A stretch of 33,361 bases of DNA from Syntrophobacter sp. SbD2 (GTDB lineage: Bacteria > Desulfobacterota > Binatia > UBA9968). The stretch lies in the NCBI GenBank assembly GCA_945889495.1, contig CAMDBU010000058.1, positions 1 to 33,361 on the forward strand. The letters run 5' to 3'. The notes below the pieces were generated by a model. That model had not been told where the DNA came from, searched no databases, and worked only from the letters and a program-made list of their open reading frames with translations. Position numbers and translations under genes: made by a program. Below are positions 5,518 through 25,832 of this stretch, one piece after another; the first letter of the stretch is position 1, and each line of letters begins with the position of its first letter.

Positions 5518-5979
5518 CTAGGATTTTCCCACTTGTTTTCGTAGCTGTTTCAATACCTGCTCGAAGGCTTCCGGCTGGCTTTTCGATACCGCGGTCTTGT
5601 AGAGCGCGTAGCGGTAGTGGGAGGGCCAGCTGCGCCATTCGGATTGGCTGACGGCTAGGCCGAGTTTCTCGCTTTTCCCCGACACCTCGACGGGCGCGGC
5701 CGCATCGCTCCATAGCGCGCTGTCCATGGGCTCGGTCTTTTCGCTGGCTTTGCCGAGATATTTGCCGGCGAGAAAGTCCATGTACTCGGCGAACACCTGC
5801 CGCTCGTCGGCATCGTCACAGGGCAAGTGGCAAAGCACAGTCCGTTCTTCCATGCTGAAAGCGAGCCAGTCTTTGAGGGAAATCTTGACGCCGGCGACAT
5901 CGAGCTTGCGGCGCACATCGAGGGGAAGGCGGCTCAGGCTCGGATAATACTCGGCTTCGTAATCGTAGCGGTGAAACAT
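5518..5979 (-). CDS. nitrate reductase-associated protein (NarM-like family)
   Basis: 153 residues. The N-terminal half matches the nitrate-reductase-associated family: a Phe/Tyr-rich start, then SLSRLPLDVRRKLDVAGVKISL (residues about 14-35, quoted here as SLSRLPLDVRRKLD and GVKISL), WLAFSMEERTVLCHLPC (37-53) and an EYMDFLA helix. In cyanobacteria NarM is needed for assembly or activity of assimilatory nitrate reductase. Here there is no nitrate reductase or molybdenum cofactor gene nearby, so its role is unclear. The C-terminal half (residues 80-153) is less recognisable, with a WRSWPSHYRYALYKTA segment typical of the family. It heads the minus-strand run and ends 44 nt before the 71-aa gene. 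Confidence 0.78.
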   Translation of the reverse strand: MFHRYDYEAEYYPSLSRLPLDVRRKLDVAGVKISLKDWLAFSMEERTVLCHLPCDDADERQVFAEYMDFLAGKYLGKASEKTEPMDSALWSDAAAPVEVSGKSEKLGLAVSQSEWRSWPSHYRYALYKTAVSKSQPEAFEQVLKQLRKQVGKS

Positions 5980-6108
5980 TTTGGCGGATGGGTTGCCTTT
6001 GGCCCTGGTGAAAAGTTATTTTCCTGATAGTCGGTGTTAAGTCAACGCTCGGCTGAGACCGATGACGCCAACTTGGAACTAGCGCTGACATTAGCAGATA
6101 ATTCACCT

Positions 6109-6618
6109 ATGCAATACGACCCACACGCGCCGCCCAAACCCATCGAGCCCACCGGCTTTTTCACCGGCATTCAGTTGCGGCCGATCCTCACCGGCGCGGT
6201 GATCGATTTTATTGCTACCTTTGCGCTGGTGACTTTGTATTATGTGTACTATGTCGCGCCGGCAGCCGGCGCCGCCGGCGCCTTCGAGGAAGCGGCGGCC
6301 AAGTACTGGGCGTCGAGCGACGGCTTGGTGACCAGTCTCTGGCTCGGTTCGCTGGGCACTTTCATCGGTGGTTTCTACGCCGCCTACAAAGCCGGAACGT
6401 TGGAAATGAAGCATGGCGCGCTGGTGGGCCTGGCGTCGATTATTCTCGGACTGTTCCTGACACCGAGCAGCTCAGAGAGCCAAACCCCGGAATGGTTCAT
6501 GGCGCTGTCTTTCGCGGCGGCGATCCCGGCCGGAGCGATGGGTGGCTTCTTCGCGGAGATGGTCAAGGGGGCGATTGGCCGGAACGGTTCGCCGCCGTCA
6601 ACCTTCCCCGGTAGATAG
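6109..6618 (+). CDS. small multi-pass membrane protein of unknown function
   Basis: 169 residues when started at the ATG at 6109 (sequence MQYDPHAPPKP). The frame is open 25 codons further to 6034, but that stretch looks non-coding. Four hydrophobic segments are seen: near residues 26-46 (FIATFALVTLYYVYYVA), 72-94 (SLWLGSLGTFIGGFYAAY), 100-119 (ALVGLASIILGLFLT) and 130-150 (FMALSFAAAIPAGAMGGFFA). Gly and Ala are frequent within the helices. No catalytic or transporter motif was recognised. It resembles small four-helix YrzE/TIGR04086-type membrane proteins in layout only. The GNAT gene starts 8 nt after its stop, so the two are probably cotranscribed. Confidence 0.65.
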   Translation: MQYDPHAPPKPIEPTGFFTGIQLRPILTGAVIDFIATFALVTLYYVYYVAPAAGAAGAFEEAAAKYWASSDGLVTSLWLGSLGTFIGGFYAAYKAGTLEMKHGALVGLASIILGLFLTPSSSESQTPEWFMALSFAAAIPAGAMGGFFAEMVKGAIGRNGSPPSTFPGR

Positions 6619-20094: not shown

Positions 20095-21089
20095 AGATTG
20101 AATACGCCGGCGGCGGTGGTGCCGAGGATGGTGGTTTTCTCGGCGCTCGAGCAGGGCGCTTGGCGCACCATGTCGATGGACTCGATGATGTTCGCGGCGG
20201 TTTTGCATTCCAATGGATAGTCGCTGCCGAACATGATCCGGTCCGCGGTTGTGATGTTCAACGCCGCTGCCATGGACGGCGCCCAGGCGCCGGTTCCCGC
20301 GGTGTCGAAATAGAATTGCTGGAAGAGCTTTTCAAAGCGTTCGGTGACGCCGTATTTTTTCTGTTCGTTCTGAGTCTTCAAATAGCCGCGCATCTCGGTG
20401 GGGATCGGCGCGTCGTCGGTTTCGAAGAACGCCATCATCCGTCCCTTGAGCGACGACGCGGCGCCGCCCAGGTGCGGGATGATGAAGCGCAGTTCAGGGA
20501 AGCGCGGCAAGACCGCGTTCATGATGCGCACGATCGCTTGGGTGGTTTCCAGTGGGCGAAACACGCAGCGGTCCAAGCTGTAAGTCGTTTCCGAACCGGT
20601 CGGCTTGGACTGCGGATGGATGATGATCGGCAGATTATTTTTCTGAATGATCTCGTAGAGTGGAAACATGATCGGATTGTCGAGCTGAATGTCGAGGTGG
20701 CAGGCAAGCATCGCCACCGAGCGCAGGCCCAATTCATGGATGCCCCGTTCGAGCTCGCGCTGGGCGCTCTCCGGTTCATGGATGGCCATGTGGATTGCGC
20801 TGCGAAAGCGCTTGGGGTGTTGGCGCTCAACTTCGGCGACGCCGTCGTTGAGGGCGCGGGCGACATCGGCGCCCATCACTTGCACCTGGTCGGTCAAGAT
20901 CGAGTAGGTGACGCCAGCATCGTCCATCGCCTTGATATGGGCTTCGAGGTCTTTTCTCGAAGGGTGCAGAGTGAGACTGATTTCGTTAGTGACGATGCGT
21001 TTGCCGCCGGCCTGTTTGGCCAGACGGTCGAATAGCATGGCCGGCATGTAATGATGGTGGACGTCGACGATCAACTCGGCTGAGGCCAT
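20091..21089 (-). CDS. amidohydrolase 2 family (ACMSD-like decarboxylase/hydrolase)
   Basis: 332 residues from the ATG at 21089 (MASAELIVDVHHHYMP); an open frame runs 110 codons further up but is rich in Arg/Pro and not protein-like. TIM-barrel metal ligands are visible: His-x-His in VDVHHHYM (residues about 9-11), His in IIIHPQS, His in FIIPHLGGA and Asp in MFGSDYPLE. The family includes 2-amino-3-carboxymuconate semialdehyde decarboxylase and related aromatic-acid decarboxylases. AAGGAG lies 13 nt upstream, longer than usual. Its stop overlaps the phosphatase-like gene. Substrate not known; a nonoxidative decarboxylase or lactonase is likely. Confidence 0.85.
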   Translation of the reverse strand: MASAELIVDVHHHYMPAMLFDRLAKQAGGKRIVTNEISLTLHPSRKDLEAHIKAMDDAGVTYSILTDQVQVMGADVARALNDGVAEVERQHPKRFRSAIHMAIHEPESAQRELERGIHELGLRSVAMLACHLDIQLDNPIMFPLYEIIQKNNLPIIIHPQSKPTGSETTYSLDRCVFRPLETTQAIVRIMNAVLPRFPELRFIIPHLGGAASSLKGRMMAFFETDDAPIPTEMRGYLKTQNEQKKYGVTERFEKLFQQFYFDTAGTGAWAPSMAAALNITTADRIMFGSDYPLECKTAANIIESIDMVRQAPCSSAEKTTILGTTAAGVFNL

Positions 21090-21193
21090 AATAAGTTCAA
21101 AGCTCCTTGTCGGTGATACTCGATAATTATACCTACGATAGGGCGTCGGCGACTGCAAGGGAGCTGGCACTGCGAGCGCTTCGAATGCGTGCT

Positions 21194-21228
21194 CAGGGGG
21201 CGCCCGGTTTCTTCCCGGCGGGCCCCTG
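21194..21228 (+). other. strong GC hairpin in the amidohydrolase/PEPCK divergent spacer
   Basis: The 332-bp spacer 21090-21421 has one clear structure: CAGGGG-g-CGCCCGG (21194-21207) pairing with CCCGGCG-gg-CCCCTG (21214-21228) with small bulges around a 6-nt loop. It lies upstream of the putative pckG promoter at 21256-21284, so it is probably not in that leader. No T-tract or known riboswitch consensus was recognised. Confidence 0.45.
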
Positions 21229-21255
21229 GACCGACGCCCAGCGATATCCCTTCGG

Positions 21256-21284
21256 TTGACTTCGCGGAACCGAATCAGTACGCT
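21256..21284 (+). promoter_or_regulatory. putative sigma70 promoter for pckG
   Basis: TTGACT at 21256-21261 and TACGCT at 21279-21284 are separated by 17 nt. The -35 is near-consensus; the -10 is weak but keeps T1, A2 and T6. The predicted leader is about 130 nt. This is the best promoter-like pair seen in the spacer. Confidence 0.35.
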
Positions 21285-21421
21285 CCCGGTACGTCGAAAG
21301 CTCAACGACTCCGGCCTGTTGCAGGATGTTATTGGTTCGCCTGAGGAAATTTCTGCGGCCATTTGGGTGGGGCCCGACGGGGGTTGGCAGTCAGCGATTT
21401 TGAAAGGACAAATCTCCACAC

Positions 21422-23194
21422 ATGAGTAACGTTACTGGTACGGTTCCGAACAATTCGCATATTCAAAATTGGGTGAAAAGCGTCGCGGCGATGTGCCAGC
21501 CCGATAGTGTTTATTGGTGCGATGGTTCGGAACAGGAAAAAGAGTTGCTCACCAAGATCGCCGTGCAGTGCGGCGATCTGTTGCCGCTCAATCAGAAGGA
21601 AGCGCCGGGCTGTTACCTGCACCGCAGCGCGCTCAACGATGTCGCGCGCACGGAAAATTTAACTTTCGTTTGCACCGAACAGCAGGAAGAGGCCGGGCCC
21701 AATAACAATTGGATGTCGCCGTCGGAGTCCTACGACAAGTTGGGCAAGATTTTCGCCGGCTCCATGCGCGGCCGGACTTTGTACGTGATTCCTTTTCTCA
21801 TGGGGCCGGCGGGGTCGTCTTTCAGCAAAGTCGGCATTCAGGTCACTGACAGCGTTTACGTCGTACTCAACATGCGGCTGATGACGCGCATGGGCAAGGT
21901 CGCTTTGGATCATCTGGGCGCCTCGGATGATTTTACTCGCTGCCTCCATTCTAAAGCCGATCTCGATATCGAGCGCCGCTTCATCTGCCATTTCCCTCAG
22001 GACAACACGGTGTGGAGTGTCGGCTCGGGTTACGGCGGCAATGCGCTGTTGGCGAAAAAATGTTTGTCGCTGCGCATCGCCAGCAAATTGGGCCAGCAGG
22101 AAGGCTGGATGGCCGAGCATATGTTGATCGTCGGCGTGGAAAATCCCGACGGCGAGATTACTTACGTTTGTGGCGCCTTCCCGAGCGCTTGCGGCAAGAC
22201 CAACATGGCGATGCTGGTGCCGCCGGCAAGTATGAAAGGCTGGAAGATTCATACCGTCGGCGACGATATCTCCTGGCTGCGCGTCGGCGCCGACGGCCGG
22301 CTCTGGGCGATCAATCCGGAGGCGGGCTTTTTCGGCGTCGCGCCGGGCACCGGTTCCAACACCAATCCGAATGCCGTTAAGACAGTTAAAAAAGATACCA
22401 TCTTCACCAACGTGGCGTTGCGCGACGACGGCACTGTTTGGTGGGAGGGCCATGACGATGCGGTGCCGGCCAACGCGCAAGATTGGCGCGGCAAGCCCTG
22501 GGATCCCGAGGGTGGCACGCCGGCAGCTCATCCCAATGCGCGTTTCACGGTGTCGATCAAACAATGTCCGACCTATTCGCCGGAATGGGAAAAGCCCGAA
22601 GGGGTGCCGATCAGCGCTATTCTCTTCGGCGCGCGCCGGCAAAAGCTAGTGCCGCTGGTCTATCAATCTTTCAATTGGCAGCATGGTACTTTTTTGGGCG
22701 CGACCTTGGCGTCGGAGACCACCGCGGCGGCCACTGGCGCGGTCGGCGTGGTGCGGCGCGATCCCATGGCGATGCTGCCGTTCTGCGGCTACAACATGGG
22801 CGACTATTGGGCGCACTGGTTGGCCATGGGCAAGAAGGCGACCAATCCGCCGAAAATTTTCCGTATCAATTGGTTCCAACGCAACGAGCGCGGCCGCTTT
22901 CTCTGGCCCGGCTTCGGTGAAAATCTCCGCGTGCTACGCTGGGTAGTGGAGCGTTCCAAGGGCGGCGGCGCCGCCGAAGAAACCCCGATCGGTTTCGTGC
23001 CTAAGGCGTCGAGCTTGACCGGCGACGGTCTAGATGTTTCCAAGGCCGATGTCGATCAATTGTTGGCCGTCGACCGCGACGGCTGGAAAAATAATTTGAA
23101 AAGCCAGAGCGACTTCTTCGATTCCTTCGGCGATCATCTGCCCGTGGGTATGAAAGAAGAGCATGGCGCCTTGGCCAACCGGCTCAAAGGCTAG
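21422..23194 (+). CDS. pckG: phosphoenolpyruvate carboxykinase (GTP)
   Basis: 590 residues, the expected size for GTP-type PEPCK. Motifs are intact: DVARTE (Arg76, PEP/oxaloacetate contact), the P-loop AFPSACGKTNMAM with Cys257 and Lys259/Thr260, PEPCK-specific GDDISWLR, and NWFQRNERGRFLWPGFGENLRVLRWV near residues 479-504 (given in parts: NWFQRNE and FLWPGFGENLRVL). The enzyme converts oxaloacetate and GTP to PEP, CO2 and GDP, the entry step of gluconeogenesis. AAAGGA precedes the ATG at a longer than usual 13 nt. Only 11 nt separate its stop from the nitrile hydratase-type genes, so they are likely one transcript. Confidence 0.96.
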   Translation: MSNVTGTVPNNSHIQNWVKSVAAMCQPDSVYWCDGSEQEKELLTKIAVQCGDLLPLNQKEAPGCYLHRSALNDVARTENLTFVCTEQQEEAGPNNNWMSPSESYDKLGKIFAGSMRGRTLYVIPFLMGPAGSSFSKVGIQVTDSVYVVLNMRLMTRMGKVALDHLGASDDFTRCLHSKADLDIERRFICHFPQDNTVWSVGSGYGGNALLAKKCLSLRIASKLGQQEGWMAEHMLIVGVENPDGEITYVCGAFPSACGKTNMAMLVPPASMKGWKIHTVGDDISWLRVGADGRLWAINPEAGFFGVAPGTGSNTNPNAVKTVKKDTIFTNVALRDDGTVWWEGHDDAVPANAQDWRGKPWDPEGGTPAAHPNARFTVSIKQCPTYSPEWEKPEGVPISAILFGARRQKLVPLVYQSFNWQHGTFLGATLASETTAAATGAVGVVRRDPMAMLPFCGYNMGDYWAHWLAMGKKATNPPKIFRINWFQRNERGRFLWPGFGENLRVLRWVVERSKGGGAAEETPIGFVPKASSLTGDGLDVSKADVDQLLAVDRDGWKNNLKSQSDFFDSFGDHLPVGMKEEHGALANRLKG

Positions 23195-23205
23195 GAGATC
23201 ACGCT

Positions 23206-23517
23206 ATGGCGCGCGGCCATCACGATATCGGCGGGCTCCCCGGCGCGGGAGCGATTGAAGCGGCCGATCATCCATTGTCCGATTGGGAGATCCTCGCCGA
23301 CGCCATCAACCAGGCGCTCGGCGCCCGCGGCGTCAAGCGCACCGATGAGATGCGCCGGGCGCGCGAAGAGATGGACTCGGCGGCCTACCGCGATATGAAT
23401 TATTACGAACGATGGGTCGCCAGCATGGAGGCGATCCTGATCGAAAAAAATATTCTCACCAAAGATGAAATCGACCAGAAGCTCGCCGAGTTCGAATCCA
23501 AGTGGGGCGAGCCGTGA
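23206..23517 (+). CDS. nitrile hydratase/thiocyanate hydrolase-type beta subunit, N-terminal part
   Basis: 103 residues. It starts with RGHHDIGGLPGAG, the nitrile hydratase beta N-terminal signature, and continues with NYYERWVASMEAILIEKNILTKDEID (about residues 64-89; key parts YYERWVASM and ILTKDEID), the helical domain of that family. The protein stops where a normal beta subunit would go on to its SH3-like barrel; that barrel is the next gene. In thiocyanate hydrolase the same split gives the beta (scnB) and alpha (scnA) chains. AGGAG precedes the ATG, 11 nt after pckG. An alternative is an activator (P14K/NhlE type), which is related to this domain, but no other gene would then supply the N-terminal half. 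Confidence 0.85.
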   Translation: MARGHHDIGGLPGAGAIEAADHPLSDWEILADAINQALGARGVKRTDEMRRAREEMDSAAYRDMNYYERWVASMEAILIEKNILTKDEIDQKLAEFESKWGEP

Positions 23518-23807
23518 CTCCGGCCAGCGGCAGATTCAACCCCGGCGATCGGGTTACGGTGAAGTTCGAAGACCGTCCCGGCCATCTGCGCACGCCTTGG
23601 TATGTTCGCGGTAAACACGGCTGGATCGAACGAGTTTACGGCGACTTTCTCAATCCTGAACTGCTCGCCTTCGGCAAAGACGGCCTACCCAAGAAAACTC
23701 TTTATTTAGTCGGCTTCGATTACGATGAAGTATTCGGCACTGGCCAAGGCCCGAAGGATAAAGTTCTGGTCGATATCTACGATCACTGGCTTGAGCCTTT
23801 GGCTTAA
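23514..23807 (+). CDS. nitrile hydratase/thiocyanate hydrolase-type beta subunit, C-terminal barrel
   Basis: 97 residues from GTG at 23514, which overlaps the previous stop as GTGA, so the pair is translationally coupled. An in-frame GTG at 23502 is possible but adds only four residues. The sequence GRFNPGDRVTVKFEDRPGHLRTPWYVRGKHGWIERVYG (residues about 5-42; key parts FNPGDRV, GHLRTPWYVRGK and GWIERV) is the C-terminal barrel of nitrile hydratase beta, including the HxRTP.Y.RGK arginines that hydrogen-bond the modified cysteines. It ends with YDHWLEPLA. The order N-half, C-half, metal subunit is that of scnB-scnA-scnC in Thiobacillus. Confidence 0.88.
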   Translation: MTPASGRFNPGDRVTVKFEDRPGHLRTPWYVRGKHGWIERVYGDFLNPELLAFGKDGLPKKTLYLVGFDYDEVFGTGQGPKDKVLVDIYDHWLEPLA

Positions 23808-23816
23808 GGAGATTTT

Positions 23817-24434
23817 ATGAGCGACGATCATGGCCATGACCATCCCAAGCATGAGTTGAGCTACTACGCCAAACGGATTTACGCCATGCGCGATCTCTTG
23901 ATCGAGAAGGGCGTCATCAGCGAGAAAGACATTCAGTGCCAGATTGAATACCAGGAAGCGCGCACGCCGGCCAACGGCGCCAGGCTCGTCGCCAAGGCCT
24001 GGGTCGATCCAGCGTTCAAGGCGCGTTTCATCGCCGATCCCAAAGCCGCCTGCCAAGAGATCGGCATCGACGCCACGGCGATCAACGAGTTCGTGGTGCT
24101 CGAAAACACGCCGCAAGTGCGCCACATGGTGGTGTGCACGTTATGCTCCTGTTATCCGCGGCCGATCCTCGGCCGGCCACCCGATTGGTACAAGAGTTTT
24201 AATTACCGCCAGCGCTCGGTGTCCGACCCGCGCGGCGTCATGCGCGAGTTCGGTCTTGAGCTGCCCGACGAAGTCGAAGTGCGGGTGCATGATAGCACCG
24301 CGGATATTCGCTACATCGTCATGCCGATGCGGCCGGCCGGCACCGAAGGTTGGAGCGAGGACGATCTCGCCAAGTTGGTCACCCGCGACAGCATGATCGG
24401 TGTCATGGACGCGTTGCCGAGTTTGCCTGAATAG
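23817..24434 (+). CDS. Co-type nitrile hydratase alpha / thiocyanate hydrolase gamma-like subunit
   Basis: 205 residues. The claw motif VCTLCSCYP gives Cys107, Cys110, Ser111 and Cys112; in this family the metal is held by these cysteines (two oxidised) and two backbone amides. Thr after the first Cys indicates a cobalt-type centre. Flanking sequences are normal: AKAWVDPAFKARFIADP, WYKSFNYRQRSVSDPRGVMREFG and VRVHDSTADIRYIVMPMRP. The active complex hydrates nitriles to amides or thiocyanate to carbonyl sulfide and ammonia. TAAGGAG precedes the ATG. It is the last gene of the pckG-linked set. Nitrile versus thiocyanate cannot be decided from these residues; the His-rich N-terminus (DDHGHDHPKH) could help metal uptake. 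Confidence 0.92.
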   Translation: MSDDHGHDHPKHELSYYAKRIYAMRDLLIEKGVISEKDIQCQIEYQEARTPANGARLVAKAWVDPAFKARFIADPKAACQEIGIDATAINEFVVLENTPQVRHMVVCTLCSCYPRPILGRPPDWYKSFNYRQRSVSDPRGVMREFGLELPDEVEVRVHDSTADIRYIVMPMRPAGTEGWSEDDLAKLVTRDSMIGVMDALPSLPE

Positions 24435-24490
24435 CCGCGTAATCTCCCTTGAACTTCCTGTAAATCCTCCCGGCGCAGTCGGGTCGATCG

Positions 24491-24537
24491 GCGCCGCCAG
24501 TCTTTCGACGGCGCAGACGATCTTTTTTGTTGATTTT
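24491..24537 (+). terminator. possible weak terminator after the nitrile hydratase-type genes
   Basis: A 6-bp stem GCGCCG (24491-24496) with CGGCGC (24509-24514) and 12-nt loop is followed after 17 nt by a T-run. Stem-to-T distance is long, so it is only weak evidence. The rest of the spacer 24435-24585 shows nothing. Confidence 0.3.
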
Positions 24538-24585
24538 CTGGCCTAGTGTTCTTACCATTCTCCTAATCCATCCAACTAGGGAAGT

Positions 24586-25095
24586 ATGATTATTCCGTTA
24601 CGCCCGTTTACCAAAGTAAAATCCGTGAAAATCGACTTTGCCACAGCGCTTCGCTGTATCGGCCAAGATCTCGATCGGCGCGGGCTCAAGACCTTCGACA
24701 TTTGCTTCGATGGCCGGGTGTTCCGAGCCCAATGCGGCTATCAGGATCCGCCGTCGGTGACACCGGTGGAGCTCGAATATCGCCCCGCCGACATCGAAGA
24801 AATGGATCAGGTCGGTGAGAAGAAGCGCGGCAAGGTGGAAGCGCCGAAAGATTTCCTCAATCAGCCGCAGGTGTTTCGCACCATCGGCGGCTTCCTCGAT
24901 CGCAATGAGGCGCGTTTGGTGCGCCTGACCAACAACCACCGGCGCGCCAAGGAATCGACATTCATCGTCGAGTATATCAGCCGCGACGGCGAATCGGTGG
25001 TCGACGACCGCGCCGGCGCGGGGATTTACGACATGTGCGTCACCATGTATAAGCAACGCGGTAAGCTCACCGGCAGCCAAGGCCGACGCCGGTAG
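24586..25095 (+). CDS. protein of unknown function (169 aa)
   Basis: 169 residues, no signal peptide or membrane segment. The ATG at 24586 follows GGGAAG closely; a GTG at about 24625 is also possible. The protein is basic with mixed alpha/beta character: KIDFATALRCIGQDLDRRGLKTFDICFDGRVFRAQCGYQ at about residues 15-53 (key parts ALRCIGQDLDRRG and FDICFDGRVFR), a VELEYRPADIEEMDQ segment, and TFIVEYISRDGESVVDDRAGAGIYDMCVTMYKQRG near the end. No known family was recognised. Coding pattern and clean start support a real gene. It lies 54 nt before the J-domain gene, which could be a partner. Confidence 0.7.
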   Translation: MIIPLRPFTKVKSVKIDFATALRCIGQDLDRRGLKTFDICFDGRVFRAQCGYQDPPSVTPVELEYRPADIEEMDQVGEKKRGKVEAPKDFLNQPQVFRTIGGFLDRNEARLVRLTNNHRRAKESTFIVEYISRDGESVVDDRAGAGIYDMCVTMYKQRGKLTGSQGRRR

Positions 25096-25149
25096 CAGCG
25101 CTGCCGAGCCATGGCGGATTGATTCGGTAATTTTTTAAAGGCCAACTAT

Positions 25150-25677
25150 TTGGATACCTCAGTCGATTACTATTCGGTTCTTGGCGTCAAGCCGGGCGCG
25201 TCGGTGGACGACATCAAGCGCGCCTACCGGCAGATGGTTTTCCGTTTTCACCCCGACCGCAATCCGGACGATCCGGATGCCGCCGATAAATTCAATCAAG
25301 TGCGCGATGCATACTCGGTGCTATCGGACGCCTTGAAGCGGCGCGTCTATGACAGCGTTAACCACCCCGAAGGGGCGGCGGAAGAGGAAATCAGGGAAGA
25401 ACGGGCCGAAGAAAATCCGCGGCAAGAAGATGAGCCGCGTTTCACCGGCAATCCATTTGGCGCGGGGAACGGCGCCAACTCTCAGCAAACCTACCAGCAA
25501 AGAGTCGAGCCGGAACCCAAATGCCCCTCTTGCTCAGTGGTCGGCATCGAGCATATCGTTTCGCGCAAAGGCGGCTCGGGCAGCGCCCGCGGCAAGCACT
25601 TTGTTCTGGCGCCCTTCAGTGTGGTCATGTGCCGCGGCTGCGGCCACGTCTACGGCATCACCGGCAATTCCAACTAG
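25150..25677 (+). CDS. J-domain protein with C-terminal zinc ribbon
   Basis: 175 residues starting at TTG (25150) with AAAGG 8 nt before. Residues 6-70 are a complete J domain: YYSVLGVKPGAS, RAYRQMVFRFHPDRNPDDP with the HPD at 34-36, and VRDAYSVLSDALKRRVYD. Residues 75-120 are a low-complexity acidic and Gln-rich linker. The C-terminus has CPSC (Cys125, Cys128) and CRGC (Cys161, Cys164), a likely four-Cys zinc ribbon. It would stimulate a DnaK-type ATPase and recruit a client through the ribbon. It is not a full DnaJ (no G/F-central domain). Located after a gene of unknown function. Confidence 0.88.
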   Translation: MDTSVDYYSVLGVKPGASVDDIKRAYRQMVFRFHPDRNPDDPDAADKFNQVRDAYSVLSDALKRRVYDSVNHPEGAAEEEIREERAEENPRQEDEPRFTGNPFGAGNGANSQQTYQQRVEPEPKCPSCSVVGIEHIVSRKGGSGSARGKHFVLAPFSVVMCRGCGHVYGITGNSN

Positions 25678-25731
25678 GCGTTGGCTGCCGGCGCGTTCGG
25701 CGCGAACATTTTCGGATTCGGATAGTTCTCC

Positions 25732-25832
25732 CGCAAAGGCGTAAAGGCGCCAAGTTCGGAAAAATTGTACGTGTGTTTCGTGAAGTTCGTGGTTTGTTTT
25801 CTCCGCCGATTTTGCGTTCTTTGCGGCCATTC
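25732..25832 (+). repeat. inverted repeat of the CGCAAAGGCG family, copy A
   Basis: Left arm 25732-25759 (CGCAAAGGCGTAAAGGCGCC...) pairs imperfectly with right arm 25805-25832 (CCGATTTTGCGTTCTTTGCG...). The centre is about 45 nt and contains a CGTGAAGTTCGTGG stretch like the repeat at 9016. It fills the convergent spacer between the J-domain and SDR genes. Related arms occur at 28225-28351. Confidence 0.7.

Follow-up and report, generated by a model that had tools for sequence, protein, structure and literature searches.

A split-beta nitrile hydratase-type gene set with thiocyanate hydrolase arginines behind pckG in Candidatus Binatia

We analysed 33,361 nt of DNA from Syntrophobacter sp. 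SbD2 (assembly GCA_945889495.1, contig CAMDBU010000058.1, GTDB lineage Binatia), hereafter the window, in which three genes follow pckG, the gene for a GTP-dependent phosphoenolpyruvate carboxykinase (PEPCK). This trio comprises bN and bC, encoding the two halves of a nitrile hydratase (NHase) beta subunit as separate proteins, and alpha, encoding the metal-binding subunit. Judged by its sequence, the trio is a member of a widespread split-beta branch that carries the arginines of thiocyanate hydrolase (SCNase), and not a classic NHase. We read it, with a probability of about 0.58, as a three-subunit cobalt hydratase or hydrolase of small anionic nitriles, with pckG as a positional partner. 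The pckG-trio neighbourhood is real and conserved, but local. The features of the locus are as follows.

21422..23194, + strand: pckG, GTP-dependent PEPCK, 590 aa (NF003253, 878.9 bits, cut-off 504; PF00821 and PF17297)
23193..23197, + strand: AGGAG, Shine-Dalgarno-like sequence of bN, overlapping the pckG stop codon (read from sequence)
23206..23517, + strand: bN, 103 aa, 11.6 kDa, N-terminal half of NHase beta as its own protein (PF21006, NHase_beta_N, 75.2 bits)
23353..23358, + strand: codons of bN R50-R51 (alignment over classes, 2dd4_B numbering)
23514..23807, + strand: bC, 97 aa, 11.1 kDa, C-terminal half of NHase beta as its own protein, GTG start (PF02211, NHase_beta_C, 69.1 bits for the 101-aa form)
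23502, + strand: alternative GTG start of bC
23589..23591, + strand: codon of bC R26 (from match end points)
23817..24434, + strand: alpha, 205 aa, 23.3 kDa, metal-binding subunit, NHase alpha or SCNase gamma (PF02979, NHase_alpha, 277.3 bits)
24135..24152, + strand: CTLCSC, metal-binding claw of alpha, in the form of cobalt enzymes (read from sequence)
24159..24161, + strand: codon of alpha R115 in CTLCSCYPR (from alignments; equivalent to SCNase gamma R136)

All three trio proteins score above their Pfam cut-offs, which supports the split NHase/thiocyanate hydrolase-type composition proposed by an earlier sequence-only reading of this DNA; that they assemble into one complex we infer. By phmmer, bN matched NHase beta at 8.2e-10 and SCNase beta (2dd4_B) at 5.8e-8, and bC matched C-terminal halves of NHase beta at 1.6e-13 at best. 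The curated NHase beta model (TIGR03888, cut-off 152.2) gave each half a score below its threshold (74.1 for bN and 67.1 for bC). Alpha passes the NHase model TIGR01323 (268.3 bits, cut-off 249.85) and stays below that for SCNase, TIGR03887 (231.2 bits, cut-off 291.45).

The residues around the metal are fixed across the alignments. The claw CTLCSC, a form seen in solved cobalt enzymes, is invariant in all 23 aligned rows, as are bN R50, bN R51 and alpha R115; bC R26 is invariant in 22 of 22. R50 aligns with NHase beta R52 and SCNase beta R90, and R51 with SCNase beta R91. R26 stands, counting from match ends, at the place of NHase beta R157 in Pseudonocardia or R141 in the Fe-type enzyme of Rhodococcus. 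These NHase arginines, 52 and 157 (R141 in Rhodococcus), presumably hold the oxidised cysteines.

Alpha R115 is the position that marks the pocket. Alpha is identical to SCNase gamma over CTLCSCYPRPILG and shares this Arg with it (gamma R136), and the wild-type Co-NHase rows shown (4ob1, 3qxe/3qz5) have Trp there. Titles in the PDB record this position exchanged either way, as R136W in SCNase (3vyg) and as W116R in NHase alpha (3vyh). The second arginine of bN follows the same division. The pair reads RR in 90 of 94 Arg-class rows, a count that includes four contigs (L116-L119) twice, with three RK and one RL making up the remainder; it is RR in all three SCNase rows and in none of the seven Trp-class rows, which have RH, RF, RA or RQ.

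The branch extends far beyond the window. A contig scan seeded by VVCTLCSC and DSTAD[IM]RY gave at least 589 confirmed places, of which we kept the best 80 as named loci (L116-L120 among these are contigs already examined, and L169 is another gene of genome G033). Arg occupies the R115 place in 70 of the 80. Separate bN and bC open reading frames (ORFs) precede alpha in 67, of which 64 have Arg and one each has Gly, Thr or Val; the latter three also carry the bN RR pair. In all seven Trp loci beta lies behind alpha, as one ORF in four and as two in three. Six Arg loci are incomplete or have another gene order. Arg alone was considered as proof of SCNase function and rejected, given its frequency and given that all five Arg-type alphas scanned outside SCNase (the window, L139, L124, L122 and L047) pass the NHase cut-off.

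A tree of 109 metal subunits separates a 98-row split/Arg branch, SCNase included, from L003 (described below) and ten classic NHase rows, one of them the window genome's own copy on contig C27 (support 98/88). The three SCNase rows form one clade (100/100) on a long stem of 1.14, within a 60-row, mostly Pseudomonadota set (98/95). The window alpha lies outside both, in a 23-row Binatia clade (100/98). Inner forks of the tree are often weak. Members of the branch were seen in Binatota, Rokubacteria, Chloroflexota, Pseudomonadota and Actinomycetota, and the split-beta Arg enzyme is common, and perhaps misnamed, in databases.

Within Streptomyces loci the pocket residue varies. NHase alpha matches at E 1e-20 were present in 68 of 392 genomes, and the 31 loci examined comprise three with split beta and Arg (one being the L195 gene again), nine with split beta and Leu, and 19 with Trp. 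Beta is one ORF in all 17 Trp loci where it was seen, and none of the 31 combines split beta with Trp. One Streptomyces locus (L228, 8247-10571) has split bN-bC-alpha with CSCYPL and a bN RD pair, 22 nt behind a gene that by eye resembles hppD (4-hydroxyphenylpyruvate dioxygenase), another trio beside a core metabolic gene; no toy (toyocamycin) cluster was recognised in its neighbourhood.

The window's own genome (5.64 Mb, 239 contigs) holds two further NHase alpha genes, on contigs C27 and C14. C27 carries a classic set with beta and accessory, and Thr follows CSCYP in its alpha. The C14 locus (L003, 1039-3451) encodes a 357-aa alpha with a long N-terminal extension and a CSCYPY motif. Behind it come a bC of 97 aa and a protein of 350 aa, by eye similar to a substrate-binding protein.

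In the window, the four genes lie on one strand with the spacings given by the sequence-only reading, which a re-reading of the sequence bears out. The pckG stop TAG ends at 23194 and the bN ATG begins at 23206, leaving 11 nt; the bN stop and the bC GTG overlap as GTGA (23514-23517); and the alpha ATG (23817) comes 9 nt after the bC stop. Scanning 21000-25800 for terminators gave five sites against 5.8 expected in shuffled sequence, one straddling the bC stop, and for promoters one site, upstream of pckG, against 1.7. With both scans at chance level, the sequence-only reading's statement that no terminator lies between the genes is fair but provisional. A 169-aa protein encoded 3' of alpha (24586-25092, hereafter o24586) has no Pfam or NCBIfam match and is kept, sometimes doubled, in relatives (L038-L040). 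On the other side, an amidohydrolase gene (PF04909) lies before pckG on the opposite strand.

We searched the window's genome and 57 relatives, and examined the neighbourhoods of 29 matches; 35 of the genomes, its own included, belong to the same order, Candidatus Binatia. The trio is a conserved unit in this order. Alpha occurs in 26 of the 35 genomes, 69–87% identical to the window alpha in 25 relatives (that of G011 is a fragment), and bN and bC precede it in the 25 genomes where the contig reaches, with bN frameshifted in G004.

The pckG link is confined to part of the order. Of the 26 trio genomes, 10 have pckG immediately ahead of bN, and they come from four genera: the five genomes of g1, G010 (g7), G014, G020 and G023 (g11), and G015 (g12). 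The gaps are 9, 11, 12, 13, 13, 13, 14, 15, 25 and 40 nt, and GGAG precedes bN in all ten. Some of these contigs are broken: that of G023 carries only the last 22 pckG residues, pckG of G020 is split over two contigs, and G010 has pckG and bN on one contig and bN-bC-alpha on another, the two agreeing at 92% identity across an overlap of 471 columns, which points to a probable mixture of strain variants. Close relatives thus keep the order, as all ten trio-bearing genomes searched from these four genera have it. Recurring in ten genomes of four genera, the order is more than chance, and the ten copies may share descent from one event. The tight spacing kept with GGAG in ten genomes also supports the co-transcription that the sequence-only reading had proposed: pckG and the trio are probably in one transcript. 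The other 16 trio genomes lack the link. pckG is absent from the 616–9640 nt upstream of bN in 15 of them, and the sixteenth, G011, was counted from the pckG side, where no trio follows.

pckG and the trio are separable in both directions. In linked genomes with visible upstream DNA, pckG often follows truB, the end of a nusA-infB-rbfA-truB block (five of nine, the window being among the four without truB). G008 has truB-pckG-o24586-dnaJ without the trio, and in G011 and G022 the pair truB-pckG is likewise not followed by a trio, their alpha sitting on other contigs. Conversely, truB is joined straight to bN-bC-alpha in G021 and G024, where pckG does not intervene; both carry a different pckG, 51–56% identical to that of the window, and a piece of the divergent copy in G024 lies about 12 kb upstream of its trio. 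In G017 (L098, about 833-943) an intact pckG, not behind truB, has after it a bN remnant made of the 37 N-terminal residues (E 1.7e-15) and no further trio match. This relic shows that the trio was deleted there; G008, G011 and G022, with no trace of the trio beside pckG, fit either gain or loss. Farther afield, pckG occurs in 3 of 82 named loci, all contigs of Binatia genomes already counted.

This separability decides against one meaning that the sequence-only reading suggested, a catabolic operon in which the trio hydrates a nitrile, the resulting acid enters the C4 acid pool, and pckG makes PEP from it. The spacing kept in ten genomes speaks for it, as do the amidohydrolase (PF04909) and a CoA-transferase nearby among eight window proteins scanned; by Pfam name, none of the eight is an amidase. 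The link is missing from 16 of 26 trio genomes, and the trio has other neighbours elsewhere. Moreover, the window's pckG gives the only GTP-PEPCK match in its genome and no ATP-type PEPCK (PF01293) was matched there, so that, as the sole PEPCK detected, it is probably a housekeeping gene. With each part found without the other, a shared nitrile-to-PEP pathway is not supported, and we reject it as very improbable.

A milder account is shared regulation, in which pckG and the trio are wanted at the same time, in some carbon or nitrogen state, with no common metabolite. In linked genomes the pckG-bN junction is unbroken (10 of 10) while truB-pckG is absent in four of nine, which leaves room for weak selection on the pair. 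The alpha-o24586 junction is nearly as stable (absent in one of nine), as block synteny would give, and the independent events are few. We consider this account quite unlikely.

Elsewhere the trio changes partners, judged by those neighbours that were named, and a common partner could be hidden among the others. In genus g15, a 391-aa M24 creatinase-like protein lies 8–12 nt behind alpha in all seven trio genomes (L052-L058); among named models the L053 copy comes closest to DddP, with 78 bits, well short of that model's cut-off of 600. G006 and G019 have an amidohydrolase-like gene 13–17 nt before bN. Four loci, L060, L061 and L063 (G057, G044 and G050) and L126, place an SDR dehydrogenase gene between the beta halves (bN-SDR-bC-alpha), with gaps of 24 and 9–15 nt in the first three. 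In L046 (2113-3402) and L048, of genus g6, a radical SAM/SPASM protein with an SEC-C motif (Pfam on the L046 copy) lies 31–32 nt behind alpha.

The reading that we prefer, a cobalt enzyme for small anionic nitriles, draws on what we observe of subunits, residues, conservation and separability. In it, bN, bC and alpha would be three subunits of one NHase-superfamily cobalt enzyme with beta split as in SCNase and the toyocamycin NHase ToyJKL. The CTLCSC claw would bind cobalt, and bN R50 and bC R26, from two separate polypeptides, would hold the oxidised cysteines. Alpha R115 and bN R51 would make the substrate pocket positive, and the likely substrate would then be a small nitrile with negative charge, for instance thiocyanate or a cyano-acid. 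In one Binatia lineage pckG precedes the trio and would share a transcript with it by virtue of position, without supplying a pathway step.

Several points weigh against this reading. NCBIfam assigns alpha to NHase and not to SCNase, and Arg occurs widely among loci with an alpha that counts as NHase, so this residue is no proof of an anionic substrate. Gly, Thr or Val takes the R115 place in three split loci. The predicted structure of alpha fits NHase chains (Z 20.8–23.2) as well as SCNase (20.9–21.0); with overlapping Z ranges, comparison of the model fails as a discriminator between the two. Toyocamycin NHase has three subunits too, yet its nitrile is uncharged. The amidohydrolase before pckG could serve a nitrile-amide route, and the constancy of the pckG-bN junction beside the looser truB-pckG one makes some selection for the pair possible.

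The same observations allow two enzymes of more familiar kind. One is an NHase that acts on neutral nitriles and, like toyocamycin NHase, has its subunits divided in an unusual way. Alpha exceeds the TIGR01323 cut-off, the beta arginine pair is conserved, and the subunits (23.3, 11.1 and 11.6 kDa) come near the 21.2, 10 and 11.4 kDa that the accessible part of PMC8574189 gives for that enzyme. Against it, Arg takes the place of the pocket Trp in all 23 rows and is accompanied by the RR pair, and we hold this identity to be possible but doubtful. The other is a true SCNase, which would gain nitrogen or detoxify by turning SCN- into COS and ammonia. The trio agrees with SCNase in its number of subunits, in alpha R115 and in bN R50-R51, and SCNase nests in the same branch. 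Against this stand the score of alpha (231.2, with the model cut-off at 291.45), its place outside the SCNase clade with that clade's stem of 1.14 among mostly Pseudomonadota rows, and a window in which nothing other than bN is P15K-like; on balance a true SCNase seems rather unlikely.

The accessory genes of these enzymes bear on how cobalt enters them. According to the accessible parts of PMC3511329 and PMC7193024, Co-NHase matures through a P14K-type protein by self-subunit swapping, and P15K promotes SCNase expression. For the SCNase genes PMC7193024 has the order alpha-beta-gamma-activator, at variance with an order beta-alpha-gamma, and order was not used as evidence. A profile built from five Trp-type accessories, with matches counted outside bN and alpha ORFs, matched in five of seven Trp loci (a sixth, L158, was counted as a bN ORF) and in the genome's own C27 set. 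No match came from the 71 Arg loci (the window plus 70 named ones), an absence weakened by draft assemblies, contig ends and flanks that reach 6 kb at most. It also matched at neither of two SCNase plasmid loci, so the profile can miss an SCNase-type accessory. In both of these plasmid loci an ORF (126 and 127 aa) overlaps or follows the scnC stop; position and likeness to bN make these P15K candidates. Profiles that include them found only bN (E down to 2e-11) and, weakly, alpha in Arg loci, and only bN in the window. Matches above the cut-off of the curated accessory model occur in 3 of the order's 26 trio genomes (G000, G002 and G020), each time beside a classic alpha.

A 103-aa protein was considered as P15K and rejected, the ORF overlapping the scnC stop in L196 being the better candidate. 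This 126-aa ORF (5759-6139, on a Roseomonas marmotae plasmid) resembles bN, is followed by CbtB and CbtA genes, and is absent from the plasmid's gene table, which is incomplete. A bolder view is that the enzymes with split beta and an Arg pocket form a large separate class, catalogued as NHases yet made for hydrating small anionic nitriles, in which the enzyme's own bN would double as cobalt chaperone, doing the job of the separate P14K or P15K that swaps with beta in classic enzymes. Drawn from sequence comparison, this view strikes us as speculative and unlikely to hold.

The enzyme branch is of more interest than the pckG link alone, an arrangement that is real but local to a lineage group of uncultured bacteria. 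All five Arg-type alphas tested outside SCNase pass as NHase at the NCBIfam cut-off though they carry thiocyanate hydrolase's pocket residues. If the substrates of the branch are anionic, many genomes would hold an unrecognised route for thiocyanate- or cyanide-derived nitrogen, with COS a possible product. The missing accessory gene would offer a simple test case for cobalt entry into this enzyme family. From pckG comes the lesson that close spacing conserved in one lineage need not imply a common pathway. In a partial coverage of the literature we found nothing joining Binatota with nitrile hydratase, and for nitrile hydratase, PEPCK and operon together only work on beta-alanine in E. coli, judged by its listing.

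Among known systems, SCNase of Thiobacillus thioparus (2dd4) is likewise built of three polypeptides, a bN-like beta, a bC-like alpha and the metal subunit gamma. It shares the CTLCSCYPRPILG stretch and the RR pair in beta, and lies on the same side of the tree. The window alpha differs in falling under the TIGR03887 cut-off and outside the SCNase clade, and bN, which matches 2dd4_B only from residue 45 of 157, is without its N-terminal part. Both plasmid scnC loci have their bN-like and bC-like halves fused, and the P15K candidates at scnC have no like neighbour in the window. Toyocamycin NHase, whose alpha, beta and gamma of 21.2, 10 and 11.4 kDa form an (alpha beta gamma)2 complex according to the accessible part of PMC8574189, is near to the window trio but not equal; we liken the two by mass and not by pocket residues. 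It differs in its setting, a nucleoside antibiotic cluster as far as the accessible part of PMC12648386 goes. Classic Co-NHases (those of Pseudonocardia and P. putida, and the genome's own C27 set) share the CTLCSC claw, the places of the beta arginine pair and the fold. Most of them have one beta chain where the window has a split one, and a P14K-type accessory stands beside most. Their alpha has Trp after CSCYP (Thr in C27), in place of Arg in the window, and their beta has RH, RF, RA or RQ where bN has RR.

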